A stretch of 64,000 nt of DNA from Halomarina litorea (lineage in GTDB: Archaea; Halobacteriota; Halobacteria; Halobacteriales; Haloarculaceae): NCBI RefSeq assembly GCF_024227715.1, contig NZ_CP100448.1, positions 124,001 through 188,000 on the forward strand, in the 5' to 3' direction. The notes under the pieces are model-generated. The model searched no databases. It worked only from the letters and a program-made list of their open reading frames with translations, and was not told the DNA's origin. Positions 42,035-46,002 of this stretch are shown piece by piece. Every line of letters starts with the position of its first letter. Position 1 is the first letter of the stretch. Made by a program: the position numbers and the translations under genes.

Positions 42035-43066
42035 CTACCCTTCGAGGAAGCCGATGTCGATACCGAGTTGCTTGGCCACGTCGATGACGGGCTGGTAGGT
42101 CTCGGCGTCGGCCTCGCGCACGTCGGAGAACCAGAGGTCGTCGTCCGTGTCGGCCTCGCCGTCCTCGCCAAGGTACATCGACTCGGGGGAGTCGAGGAGT
42201 GCCTGCGTGACCGAGGACTGCTGTTCCTCGGGGAGCAGGGGGCTGACCGCGATGGGGGCGCGCGGGATACCCTCGTACTTCTTCACGTACTCGATACCTT
42301 CCTTCTGCTCGCGGTTGTCGTTGAGCGTGATGAACTCGCCGACGCCGGCGGCGTCGGCCTGTCCGGTGTTGACCGCGGCCAGCGCCTTGTCGTGACCGCC
42401 GGCGAACTGGGCGGTGAAGTCGGCGCCGCCGTCGCTCTGGGGCAGTTCGCCGATGCTGAGGCCCGCCTGCTTGAGCATGTACAGCGGGAACAGCGCGCCG
42501 CTGGCGCTGAGACGGTCCGCGAAGGCGATGGTCTTGCCCTTGAGGTCCGAGAGCGAACTGACGTCGCTGTCGGCGCTGGTGACGATGGTGCTGACGTAGG
42601 TGTACGAGCCGTAGCCCTTGCGCTGGAGGACGATGTTGACCTTCTCGGCCTTGACGCCGAGTGCGGCCGCGAACGGCCCCATCTCCGCGACGTCGGCCGT
42701 CCCGGAGTCGAGCGCGGACATGACCGCGCTGTAGTTGTTCCCGTACGTGAGTTCCGTGGGGACCGAGAGCGCCTCGTTGAGGTAGCTCTTGACCGGCGCG
42801 TACTGCGCCATCATCTGCTCCTGTGGCTCGGAGGGCGACATGATGAAGTTCAGCGTGCCGTCGCGGAACTTCTCCCCCGAGTCGGACGTGGACTCGCCCG
42901 ACCCGTTGCCCGACGGGGAGCCCTCCCCGTCCGTCGTGTCGTTCGTGCTACCGCCGCCCGACCCGTTGTCGCCGTCGCCGCCGTCGCCGCCGCCGAGGCA
43001 TCCCGCGAGGAGCCCCGCGCTGCCGAGTGCACCTGCCGTCTTCAGGAAGTCGCGTCGTTTGGACAT
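42035..43066 (-). CDS. phnD: Phosphonate-type substrate-binding lipoprotein
   Basis: A periplasmic-type binding protein of 343 residues. A twin-arginine signal (SKRRDFLKTAG) and lipobox LLAGC anchor it outside the membrane; a Gly/Ser/Asp linker of about 45 residues follows. The PhnD/PtxB-type domain includes LNFIMSPSEPQEQMMAQYAPVKSYL, a Tyr in TELTYGNNYSAVMSALDSGTADVAEMGPFA, and TIVTSADSDVSSLSDLKGKTIAFADRLSASGALFPLYML. It is the first gene of the transporter operon, and the linker is typical of haloarchaeal lipoproteins. Confidence 0.9.
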   Translation of the reverse strand: MSKRRDFLKTAGALGSAGLLAGCLGGGDGGDGDNGSGGGSTNDTTDGEGSPSGNGSGESTSDSGEKFRDGTLNFIMSPSEPQEQMMAQYAPVKSYLNEALSVPTELTYGNNYSAVMSALDSGTADVAEMGPFAAALGVKAEKVNIVLQRKGYGSYTYVSTIVTSADSDVSSLSDLKGKTIAFADRLSASGALFPLYMLKQAGLSIGELPQSDGGADFTAQFAGGHDKALAAVNTGQADAAGVGEFITLNDNREQKEGIEYVKKYEGIPRAPIAVSPLLPEEQQSSVTQALLDSPESMYLGEDGEADTDDDLWFSDVREADAETYQPVIDVAKQLGIDIGFLEG

Positions 43067-43224
43067 TGTGCGAACATCTCCACATTCCGATGGATGATTC
43101 TAAGTCTTTCTACTTCAGCCGGAATATCACGACGAGGAGTGACACCTATATATGTCCATCATGTCGTCCGCGGACACAACTCGGACGACGGAACTGACTT
43201 GCCGGCGTCGGCCGTAGCGCACCC

Positions 43225-43869
43225 ATGAGCATGCAGGTCACCGCCGACGTGGTCGTCGTGGACTACGGCCTCGGGAACCTCCGGAGTGTCACCCGGGGCC
43301 TCGAACGCGCCGGGGCCGGAGTGGAAGTCAGCGCCGACCCGGCCGTTCTCGACCGTGCCGACGGCGTGGTCCTCCCCGGCGTCGGAGCGTTCAGCGAGGG
43401 CATGGAGAACGCCGGCCCGTTCCGCGACGTCCTCCTCGACCTCGCCGCGGAGGGCACGCCCCTGTTCGGCATCTGTCTCGGGATGCAGATGCTCCTGACG
43501 ACGAGCGAGGAGGCCACCCACGCGGGACAGGGCGACGTGGAGGGGCTGGACCTCGTTCCCGGCCGGAACGTGCGGTTCGCCGAGGGGCAGAAGGTGCCCC
43601 ACATGGGCTGGAACGAACTCGACGTGAAGCGCGACCACCCCCTCGTCGAGGGTGTCGACGGACAGCACGCCTACTTCGTCCACTCGTACTACGCGGTCCC
43701 TGACGACGAGAGCGCCACCGTCGCCACCACGGACTACGGGCGCGAGTTCGCCTCCATCGTCGCCAACGACCGGGGTAACGTCTTCGGGACCCAGTTCCAC
43801 CCCGAGAAGTCGGGCGAGACGGGCCTGCGCATCCTCCGGAACTTCGTAGAGATGTGCGCCGAGAAGTAG
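43225..43869 (+). CDS. hisH: Imidazole glycerol phosphate synthase, glutaminase subunit
   Basis: A class I glutamine amidotransferase of 214 residues that supplies ammonia to HisF in histidine synthesis. It starts with VVVVDYGLGNLRSVTRGLE. The nucleophile is Cys84 in FGICLGMQML, and the His-Glu pair is His192/Glu194 in FGTQFHPEKSG. HisF is not next to it. A TATA-like CCTATATATG occurs at 43145-43154, about 75 nt upstream. Confidence 0.95.
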   Translation: MSMQVTADVVVVDYGLGNLRSVTRGLERAGAGVEVSADPAVLDRADGVVLPGVGAFSEGMENAGPFRDVLLDLAAEGTPLFGICLGMQMLLTTSEEATHAGQGDVEGLDLVPGRNVRFAEGQKVPHMGWNELDVKRDHPLVEGVDGQHAYFVHSYYAVPDDESATVATTDYGREFASIVANDRGNVFGTQFHPEKSGETGLRILRNFVEMCAEK

Positions 43870-43975
43870 TCGAAACGCGAAAGTGCGGTAGATGACCAGC
43901 GTTCGCGCGAGGGTGTCACCCCGAGCGCGATTCTCGGGCGCGAGTGGAGCGAGCGCCCGCACTTTTTCGTGCCAT

Positions 43976-44113
43976 TGCGAGACGCTCGGCGTCTCGCAGG
44001 CTCCCAGAAACTTCGTTACCAGAACGCTCTGCGTTCTGGTTGCCAGCGGGACCGGCGGTCCCGCGCGCTTGCTGGGAGAGGGTTTTCGAGGAGCGGTGCG
44101 CCGCAGGCGCACC
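43976..44113. repeat. Array of four strong hairpins downstream of hisH
   Basis: Four almost perfect stem-loops lie in 138 bp of gene-free DNA. They are 43976-43998 (9-bp stem, 5-nt loop), 44018-44040 (10-bp stem, loop TCT), 44046-44064 (8-bp stem GCGGGACC, 3-nt loop) and 44095-44113 (8-bp stem GGTGCGCC, 3-nt loop). They lie between the convergent ends of hisH and the SWIM gene, so one role may be transcript termination or protection. The two middle hairpins are part of an inverted repeat with 44576-44632. Confidence 0.7.
44011..44067 (+). repeat. Left copy of inverted repeat flanking the SWIM gene
   Basis: By hand alignment, 49 of 57 positions match the reverse complement of 44576-44632. It contains two hairpins. 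Differences within the longer hairpin are compensated so that pairing is kept (ACCAGAACGC/GCGTTCTGGT here against ACCGGAACGC/GCGTTCCGGT in the other copy). Confidence 0.75.
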
Positions 44114-44130
44114 CGACGAAGAAAACGGTG

Positions 44131-44478
44131 CTATAGGAACTCTCGGACTTCCGAGTACCACATGTCGTGGTGGTCGACGGCGTCGAGACCGCGCGCGAGG
44201 TCGACGGCGATGACGTGCCAGCAGCGCTCGTCGGGGTCCTCGGGGTCGAGGTTGTACTGGCTGTCCTTGCAGCCACAGCCGCCGTCCTCGACGACGTACT
44301 CCTCGGCGTGGCCGACGACGACAGTGAAATCGAGGTACTCCTTCACCCGTCGCTCGGCGACGGCCTCGATGGCACGGGACCCCCGGGAGCCGTGGGCGTC
44401 GAGGAGTTGACGGGCGACGCGGGCGTCGAGTTCGCCCGTCTCGGCCAGCGTCGCCCGCCACTCGTCGGCCGATGTCAC
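44131..44478 (-). CDS. SWIM zinc-finger protein
   Basis: A protein of 115 residues. The SWIM motif CxC...CxH is formed by Cys68, Cys70, Cys86 and His88 (GGCGCKDSQYNLDPEDPDERCWHVIAV). In front is a helical half with RVKEYLDFTVVVGHAEEYVVED. SWIM domains bind DNA or proteins and occur in recombination (SWS1-like) and transposon-related proteins; stand-alone forms are common in haloarchaea with no known function. The gene lies exactly between two inverted repeat copies, which raises the question of whether it moves as a cassette. Confidence 0.85.
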   Translation of the reverse strand: MTSADEWRATLAETGELDARVARQLLDAHGSRGSRAIEAVAERRVKEYLDFTVVVGHAEEYVVEDGGCGCKDSQYNLDPEDPDERCWHVIAVDLARGLDAVDHHDMWYSEVREFL

Positions 44479-44575
44479 ACCATGGGTAGCCGGGGGGGGG
44501 CAAAACAGGTTCGGGTCACGGCGAACGCCAGTGAGCCGTGACTAGGGAGCGGTAGCGACTGTAGTCCCGACGAGC

Positions 44576-44632
44576 CGCGCGGGACCTTCGGTCCCGATGG
44601 AAACCGGAACGCGGAGCGTTCCGGTGACGAAG
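44576..44632 (-). repeat. Right copy of inverted repeat flanking the SWIM gene
   Basis: This is the reverse complement counterpart of 44011-44067 (8 mismatches in 57). With the left copy it encloses about 510 bp containing only the SWIM zinc-finger gene. Confidence 0.75.
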
Positions 44633-44689
44633 CGAGTCGGGAGCAAGGAGCGCGAGCGAGTGGGGTCACGGCGAACGAGTCGACTCAGA

Positions 44690-44800
44690 GTGGAAGGAGC
44701 ACGGGAGTGCCCCGTCGTCTACCACGTCGGCGCGAAAGCCCTCGCAGTGGACGGCGACCCAGTCGGGATCGTGTCTCGGGGGACGGCCGCGTCACGATAG
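44690..44800 (+). CDS. Doubtful 36-residue open frame
   Basis: A short frame from a possible GTG start reads VEGARECPVVYHV and then GAKALAVDGDPVGIV, with G/C-ending codons and protein-like composition. It has no recognised family, is very short, and could be the remnant end of a lost gene. Confidence 0.2.
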   Translation: MEGARECPVVYHVGAKALAVDGDPVGIVSRGTAASR

Positions 44801-44863
44801 CGGAGCCTCTCGGGTTTCGCCGGAGATAGTGGCCCTTTTCGCCCCCGAGGGGGTGGCCCGTGT

Positions 44864-45973
44864 ATGGAAGTGCGCGAGGGGAACGTCACGGTGGAGGTGC
44901 CCGAGCAACCGGAGGCGGGGGCGGGCGAGGGGGTCTTCTTCAACCCCGATCAGGAGTTGAACCGCGACCTGACCGTCGCCGTCCTGCGCGAACACGCCAC
45001 CCGCAGACACGACGGCCGGCCGGGCGAGTACCTCGACGCCACCGCCGCCAGCGGTATCCGGGGGGTGCGGGCCGCGAGCGAGGGCTGGGACGTCACCTGC
45101 TGTGACGTGGACGAGGAGGCCGTCGAACTCGCCCGCGAGAACCTCGCGCGCAACGACCTCGCCGGCGAGGTTGTCCATCGGAACGCGAACGCCCTCATGT
45201 ACGAACACCGGTTCGACGTGGTGGACGTCGATCCCTTCGGAACGCCCATCCCCTTCGCGGACGCCGCCTTCCGGAGCGGGCGGGAACTGGTCTGTATCAC
45301 CGCGACGGACACCGCACCCCTCTGTGGGGCGCACTTCGAGAGCGGCGTCCGGAAGTACGGCGCGATACCCCGGAACACCGACTTCCACGCCGAGATGGGC
45401 CTCCGGGTCCTCCTCTCGGCACTCGTGCGAACCGCCGCCCGGTACGACGTGGGCGCCGAACCCGTCTTCAGCCACGCGACGCGCCACTACGTCCGGACGT
45501 ACCTGCGCGTACACAATCGGGCGACCGATGCGAACGACGCACTCGACGAACTGGGCTACGTCTACCACTGCGAGGACTGCCTCTACCGCGAACACGCGTT
45601 CGGCCTCGTCGCCAACCCCGTCGACACCTGCCCGCTCTGCGAGGGGACGCGGGTGCAGGCGGCGGGACCCCTCTGGCTCGGTGCGGCCCACGACCCGGCG
45701 TTCGTCGAGGCGGTCCGCGGGCGAATCACCGACGAGATGGGGACCGCGAAGCGTGCCGGCCGCCTCTGTGAACGACTCGAGGGTGAACTCCACGAGCCGA
45801 CCCACTACGACCAGCACCGCCTCTCGAAGGAGTGGAACATCTCGGCAATCGGGATGGACGAGTTCCTCGACCGCCTGCGAGAGGCGGGCTTTGCGGCTTC
45901 GCGGACCCACTTCGGAGGGACGACGTTCAAGACGGACGCAGACGTCGGCGAGATTCGCCGCGCGACGACCTGA
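44864..45973 (+). CDS. trm1: tRNA (guanine26-N2)-dimethyltransferase
   Basis: An enzyme of 369 residues that dimethylates G26 of tRNA using SAM. It has [18 protein letters not shown] at the start, the SAM site [19 protein letters not shown], the catalytic motif [17 protein letters not shown] (DPFG), [11 protein letters not shown], and a C-terminal zinc cluster (CEDCLYREH...CPLCEG). The Trm1 hallmark [40 protein letters not shown] near the end is intact. Confidence 0.96.
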
Positions 45974-45993
45974 GGCGCGAGCGGGGTCCCCCT

Positions 45994-46002
45994 GATTATA
46001 TG
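45994..46002 (+). promoter_or_regulatory. TATA box for the YihY gene
   Basis: GATTATATG lies about 28 nt before the GTG start at 46027, the spacing expected of a leaderless haloarchaeal message. This supports that start. Confidence 0.55.

Follow-up and report, generated by a model that had tools for sequence, protein, structure and literature searches.

The window analysed here comprises 64,000 nt (C1:124001-188000) of the 3.88-Mb genome of Halomarina litorea. In this window, a gene for a small protein with a SWIM-type motif is located between hisH and TRM1, and a structured intergenic element was found on each side of it (Table 1). The CxC...CxH motif was invariant across 13 aligned orthologues. 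The SWIM profile PF04434 matched 10 of these 13 at E <= 1 (best 0.0011), whereas no match at this threshold was obtained for the protein of the window itself.

Table 1 Features of the hisH-SWIM-TRM1 region (positions within the window)
Feature	Position	Strand	Support
hisH, imidazole glycerol phosphate synthase subunit; reads into left element	43225-43869	+	TIGR01855, 6e-64
T5C tract facing hisH; strong terminator motif tested in Haloferax volcanii	43963-43968	+	PMC7237163
Left element, full length (model R1), between convergent hisH and SWIM gene; closing stem GTGCC/GGTGC	43969-44131	+	fold, copies
H1 hairpin, 10 bp, triloop	43976-43998	+	
3WJ double-hairpin domain, left copy; stem TCCCAG/CTGGGA encloses H2 and H3	44002-44077	+	R2, 82.3 bits
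H2 hairpin of left 3WJ, 10 bp	44018-44040	+	
H3 hairpin of left 3WJ, 8 bp	44046-44064	+	
P4: TTTTC - H4 (44095-44113) - GAAAACGGTGC; right edge overlaps SWIM stop by 1 nt	44083-44131	+	R3, 75.6 bits
SWIM-motif small protein, conserved single-copy core gene	44131-44478	-	motif, orthologues, synteny
Exact 15-bp direct repeat GGGTCACGGCGAACG, copy 1, flanks right 3WJ	44513-44527	+	
Right element, stand-alone 3WJ; outer stem TCCCGAC/GTCGGGA, exchanged relative to left copy	44566-44641	-	R2, 89.4 bits
H3 hairpin of right 3WJ, 7 bp	44580-44596	-	
H2 hairpin of right 3WJ, 10 bp	44603-44625	-	
Exact 15-bp direct repeat GGGTCACGGCGAACG, copy 2, flanks right 3WJ	44663-44677	+	
TRM1, tRNA (guanine-26-N2)-dimethyltransferase	44864-45973	+	NF003327, 1e-195

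The original prediction described a 57-bp inverted repeat on both sides of the SWIM gene, and this repeat is real. Arm 44011-44067 matches the reverse complement of arm 44576-44632 at 49 of 57 positions, while the best ungapped 57-mer match in 500 dinucleotide shuffles of both flanks did not exceed 34. Two hairpins with stems of 10 and 8 bp had been assigned to each arm. This was correct for the left arm and for the longer hairpin of the right arm, but the right H3 is one pair shorter. The 57-bp arms cut through bigger units, namely an element of 163 nt on the left and a domain of 76 nt on the right. Both arms are members of a haloarchaeal family of structured intergenic elements. Hence, they are not two unrelated terminators, as had been considered: the arms are homologous within one dispersed family, and of the two just the left arm is located at gene 3' ends. 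The inverted repeat is formed by two family members near each other in opposite orientation, and a special pairing of the arms is not needed.

The 163-nt left element contains four hairpins and its predicted fold is strong (z = -5.1). A closed multi-branch structure is obtained, in which the closing stem is followed by H1 and by two hairpin-enclosing stems, CTCCCAG/CTGGGAG around H2 and H3 and GTTTTC/GAAAAC around H4. The domain of two triloop hairpins within an enclosing stem, termed three-way junction (3WJ), is nested in this element and stands alone elsewhere. The left arm is part of a composite 3'-end element with the module P4 as its core. A BLASTN search of the whole genome for the repeat unit, run with 43960-44130, revealed two further long copies at C1:1722540 (90% over 171 bp) and C1:2521489 (89% over 137 bp) as well as about 45 pieces. 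The linkers are conserved between the copies; the intervening hairpins vary in sequence with pairing retained. At the same hisH-SWIM junction of the congener G001 the whole orthologous element is present. Its stems are heavily changed yet complementary, e.g. the H2 arms ACCAGAACGC/GCGTTCTGGT of the window are replaced by ACCGGCGGC/GCCGCCGGT. The congeners G006 and G007 have retained the gene-side part of the element at this junction. In the genus, the stem around the left 3WJ is also found as a plain hairpin, e.g. CTCCCAG-AAGC-TTC-GCTT-G-CTGGGAG at locus L115. Hence, the double hairpin seems to have been inserted in, or lost from, the loop of this stem. Between two loci of the window genome (L076 and L077) the hairpin interior differs as if inverted (GA...AA versus TC...TC). 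In G003 and G004 the hisH side of the SWIM 3' end carries a different block, consisting of T4, a large hairpin and A4 GGTGG (L034, L035). Thus, a terminator-like layout persists at the hisH-SWIM junction though the sequence has been replaced.

The right element is a 3WJ without P4, placed in the divergent gap between the SWIM gene and TRM1. Among the relatives compared, the best for the right arm were C1:98360 of G001 (79.7 bits) and C1:1722591 (74.3 bits); the left arm reached 68.0 bits. The 15-bp direct repeat at its flanks overlaps a short palindrome (GTCACGGC/GCCGTGAC) and may be a target duplication or part of an outer stem; around it, the congeners are too divergent to show an empty site. 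In G001, G004, G006 and G007 the SWIM/TRM1 gap (44479-44863 in the window) holds about 500-600 bp of common, probably coding sequence. By eye, this is an isochorismatase-like reading frame on the minus strand, which both the window genome and G003 lack.

The SWIM gene had been proposed to be a cassette with structured inverted ends that is mobilised in trans. The geometry, with homologous arms inverted around one gene, agrees with this proposal. However, the gene was present in 39 of the 40 genomes of the order that were searched, as a single copy in nearly all of them, and it occupies the same place in relatives. Among 29 of these, compared with 1.5-kb flanks each, it adjoins TRM1 in 22, hisH in 13 and both in 12, and most of the 29 lack the repeats. 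Furthermore, the left and right arms are not each other's nearest relatives, and the left arm extends into the 163-nt element, which is also found without SWIM. As a syntenic single-copy core gene that lacks such repeats in most relatives, the SWIM gene is not the cargo of a cassette. The cassette was therefore rejected as extremely improbable, and we infer that the SWIM gene is a bystander.

For the 3WJ, the H2-H3 domain was aligned with further copies (model R2). The two copies in the window differ by one exchanged pair alone (A-T against G-C), so the compensatory stem changes claimed for this locus amount to a single pair. Across the family they are abundant, and pairing is preserved despite sequence change well beyond the two window copies. 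In the alignment of 42 copies, 94.6% of cells were paired and changes on both sides occurred in 21 of 25 pairs. Double changes amounted to 161 compared to 43 in shuffled data, and the covariation score was 0.435 in contrast to 0.04-0.10 (at most 0.096) for slid structures. This alignment was fitted to the structure; an independent MAFFT alignment is the fairer test, and with it 17 of 26 pairs were changed on both sides. The outer stem is rewritten almost freely between copies, and the unpaired linkers and positions are conserved across 26 genera. Stand-alone 3WJs, including the right arm, are also located at divergent and tandem junctions; neither 3' anchoring nor an orientation rule was observed for them.

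It was further examined whether the structure is formed by DNA or RNA. Transcripts of one strand should favour G-U pairs. In the three main helices (P1, H2 and H3) G-U was not commoner than A-C (10 versus 17 among 890 cells); hence, these helices are unlike a one-strand RNA. The 2-bp inner helix of the 3WJ has the opposite bias (G-U 11, A-C 2), which gives a hint of RNA on that strand. Loops of three bases were found in 111 of 128 distinct hairpins of the element regions compared to 64 of 255 in flanking DNA, with a stem cut-off of 8 bp in the elements and 7 bp in the flanking control. GNA (36) and TNC (37), which are mutual complements, together account for 73 of these 111 triloops, compared to 7 of 64 in the control. 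In single-stranded DNA, C(GNA)G loops are known for their high stability, e.g. in d(GCGAAGC). Within the oriented, sequence-fixed H3 stem (n = 157) the loops were TTC (82), GAA (18), TCC (25) and GGA (10). Because these are reverse-complement states with few intermediates, the loops seem to invert as units, as would result from template switching in a palindrome.

These loop states are also what is expected if the elements are functionless palindromes kept perfect by template switching. Such neutral palindromes leave the conserved unpaired linkers across 26 genera, the P4 sequence and its 3'-end anchoring unexplained, and we regard them as a very unlikely explanation. A one-strand transcript acting as a structured non-coding RNA or riboregulator is somewhat better supported, albeit still unlikely. 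The strong fold, the covariation, the conserved unpaired positions of the 3WJ, the purine-rich internal loop of P4 and the bias of the inner helix are in accordance with it, but the main helices and the missing orientation rule of the stand-alone copies are not. A known RNA family was rejected as well: Rfam, applied to positions 43000-46000 of the window at E <= 1, gave a single chance match inside the SWIM gene and none above the gathering threshold, and for 20 family loci tRNA and RNase P genes alone were matched. Altogether, the pairing and loop patterns favour, without proving, a structure at the DNA level or on two strands.

P4 is a palindrome of T4-5C, a hairpin and GA4-5 with outward T tracts on both strands. 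In the window, the T4C tracts are located at 44083 (+) and 44125 (-). The arrangement TTTTTCGAGGAGYGG - hairpin - CCCGACGAAGAAAAAGGTG is conserved across genera, and so are the T tracts. P4 matches were detected in 17 genomes of a draw of 147 from the phylum; all 17 belong to this order. The unpaired segments GAGGAG and GACGA(A) (44087-44131) are purine-rich and conserved across genera; on the plus strand, these internal-loop purines could form tandem G-A pairs.

The left element and P4 mark gene 3' ends. The 3' edge of R1 lies -1 to +6 nt from the stop codon of the opposing gene in 32 of 45 full-length hits of the genus, where about 1.5% would be expected, and the 5' edge beside a stop codon in none of the 45. 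In other genera, 14 of 27 3' edges are at gene stops compared to 1.5% of random intergenic positions. With the P4 model, stop codons adjoined 10 of 13 matches in the window genome and, in other genomes, 9 of 27. P4 also abuts tRNA 3' ends, with distances of 0 nt for tRNA-Pro (L357) and tRNA-Ser (L377) and 5 nt for tRNA-Phe (L332). Some full-length hits have no adjoining gene end. As the genes were called with a simple codon-usage script, by which short genes and tRNAs can be missed, the stop-adjacent fractions are lower bounds. A restriction to convergent genes was rejected, since the gene on the other side of the full elements, which are at 3' ends, can point either way. At L371 and L373, P4 is followed by an apparent tRNA-Pro 3'-end fragment, and a few hundred bases away a tRNA-Pro is present in complete form. 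These fragments are possibly attachment-site remnants of tRNA-integrating elements that carried the terminator along.

The T4-5C tracts of P4 match the T5C terminator motif of Haloferax volcanii (Berkemer et al. 2020, PMC7237163), which terminated 95% of transcripts in vivo. As in the T-stretch terminators of haloarchaea, the TC-containing tract is located in intergenic DNA after the gene. In contrast to those of Haloferax, the palindromic P4 carries the tract on each strand, followed in either direction by a hairpin; in the Haloferax study, hairpins were reported upstream of the termination sites (PMC7237163). The layout of bacterial intrinsic terminators, a hairpin and then a T run, was not found in P4, where T4-5C precedes the hairpin on both strands. 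Since P4 is a palindrome, a polymerase would meet T-C before the hairpin from either side, and most of the hairpin array would be transcribed on read-through alone. P4 marks the 3' ends of protein genes and tRNAs alike and is thus most simply a terminator. Judged by its sequence and location, it is most likely a bidirectional one.

R1 matches at E <= 0.01 amounted to 30 in the window genome, and six of the seven congeners had 8-24 each. This model was matched in 55 of 116 genomes and 32 of 45 genera of the order, the 3WJ (R2) in 52 of 116 complete genomes and 26 of 45 genera with up to 29 copies per genome. A pattern scan of 84,980 species gave, among the matches listed, haloarchaea throughout except for one MAG labelled 'Euryarchaeota archaeon'. 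Confinement to the main chromosome was not confirmed. All 58 R1 matches are on C1, but one copy on C2 was found with R2, indicating a depletion at most. In genome G120, an intergenic element of 167 bp with a double hairpin between CTTTTGCC and GCAGCAAAAGG is identical at two loci and 97-99% identical at a third (L152, L153, L154), with different flanks. Two 3WJ copies of the window genome have a stretch of 191 bp in common at 93%. Such near-identical copies at separate loci indicate that the copies spread. A possible route of this spread is recombination or gene conversion between intergenic regions.

Among the closest known systems are the CGTC-tagged REPs (Di Nocera et al. 2013, PMC3733652), described from five bacterial phyla with no mention of haloarchaea. 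Like the 3WJ hairpins, they are short, dispersed, intergenic palindromes in which CGTC immediately precedes the stem; frequent location near gene 3' ends and the lack of a linked transposase are further common properties. Directly 5' of the H2 stem, CGTC is exact in 34 of 42 copies and one change off in the other eight. The REPs have a CCA-bearing tail directly after the stem; in the 3WJ, CCA was found in 30 of 42 copies, but two nt past the stem end (TTCCA, TGCCA, TCCCA). CGTC-tagged REPs have loops of 4-5 nt and A-T at the first two stem positions; here, triloops predominate and A/G-T/C is followed by C-G, which forms the second pair in 39 of 42 copies. Unlike in these REPs, the hairpins are embedded in a three-way junction with a covarying enclosing stem. 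The main text of a 2025 survey of REPs in bacteria and archaea contains no word beginning with 'Halo' (PMC12306157).

PATEs and SMRs of Haloquadratum walsbyi (Dyall-Smith et al. 2011, PMC3119063) are likewise small, dispersed and transposase-free, with palindromes and with one element inserted within the palindrome of another. In the available part of that description, PATEs have near-terminal palindromes related to IS605-type ends and SMRs comprise about 80-110 bp with inverted terminal repeats; neither is described there as 3'-anchored or as a covarying three-way junction. Repetitive hairpins in intergenic DNA are also known as repetitive hairpin-forming elements of organelles, e.g. of sponge mtDNA (PMC2800124). 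As far as the abstract of this source goes, the likeness is one of description, and the organisms are unrelated. No description of P4 or the 3WJ was found in the literature on terminators, REPs, haloarchaeal repeats and structured RNAs, covering mainly open-access journal articles. Hence, the family appears to be undescribed.

The likeness to CGTC-tagged REPs allows for another reading, in which the 3WJ is a single-stranded DNA mobile element, its hairpins being sites for HUH transposases (IS200/IS605, RAYT-type) acting in trans and the 3' ends just tolerated insertion sites. CGTC and the CCA-bearing tail fit this reading, as do minimal triloops on perfect stems, near-identical dispersed copies and nested modules. 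However, Y1_Tnp (PF01797) was absent from the window genome (98% complete) and from five of seven congeners, mostly rich in elements, and a RAYT-type partner was therefore rejected. Virus-borne spread was rejected too, as two family patterns of 29-34 bases had no match in IMG/VR virus contigs. Moreover, tolerated insertion would not account for positions so close, to within a few nt, to gene ends. A mobile element of this kind is thus rather improbable, although less so than the one-strand RNA.

For this family, whose distribution, covariation and 3'-end anchoring have been shown, we consider it likely that P4 is a two-way terminator and the 3WJ a REP-like module, with the SWIM gene as a bystander. 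P4 would terminate transcription both ways at its T tracts, and the extra hairpins may limit read-through as a fail-safe or insulator. Like REPs, the 3WJ would be dispersed by copying, and its palindromes would be maintained at the DNA level or via selection on transcripts of both strands. More tentatively, and with clearly less confidence, the 3WJ could be a haloarchaea-wide folded-DNA (cruciform-like) or two-strand element that has its stems rewritten and its GNA/TNC loops inverted, spreads, and acts as an insulator in bidirectional terminators.

If these readings hold true, two structured elements that appear undescribed would be present in about half of the haloarchaeal genomes. P4 would then serve as a compact two-way terminator at gene 3' ends, including those of tRNA genes, and a ready-made part for haloarchaeal annotation and genetics. 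The 3WJ would be an archaeal REP-like element with very strong covariation and without the G-U signature of a one-strand RNA. Due to this combination, the question of DNA versus RNA structure is directly testable with the 3WJ.
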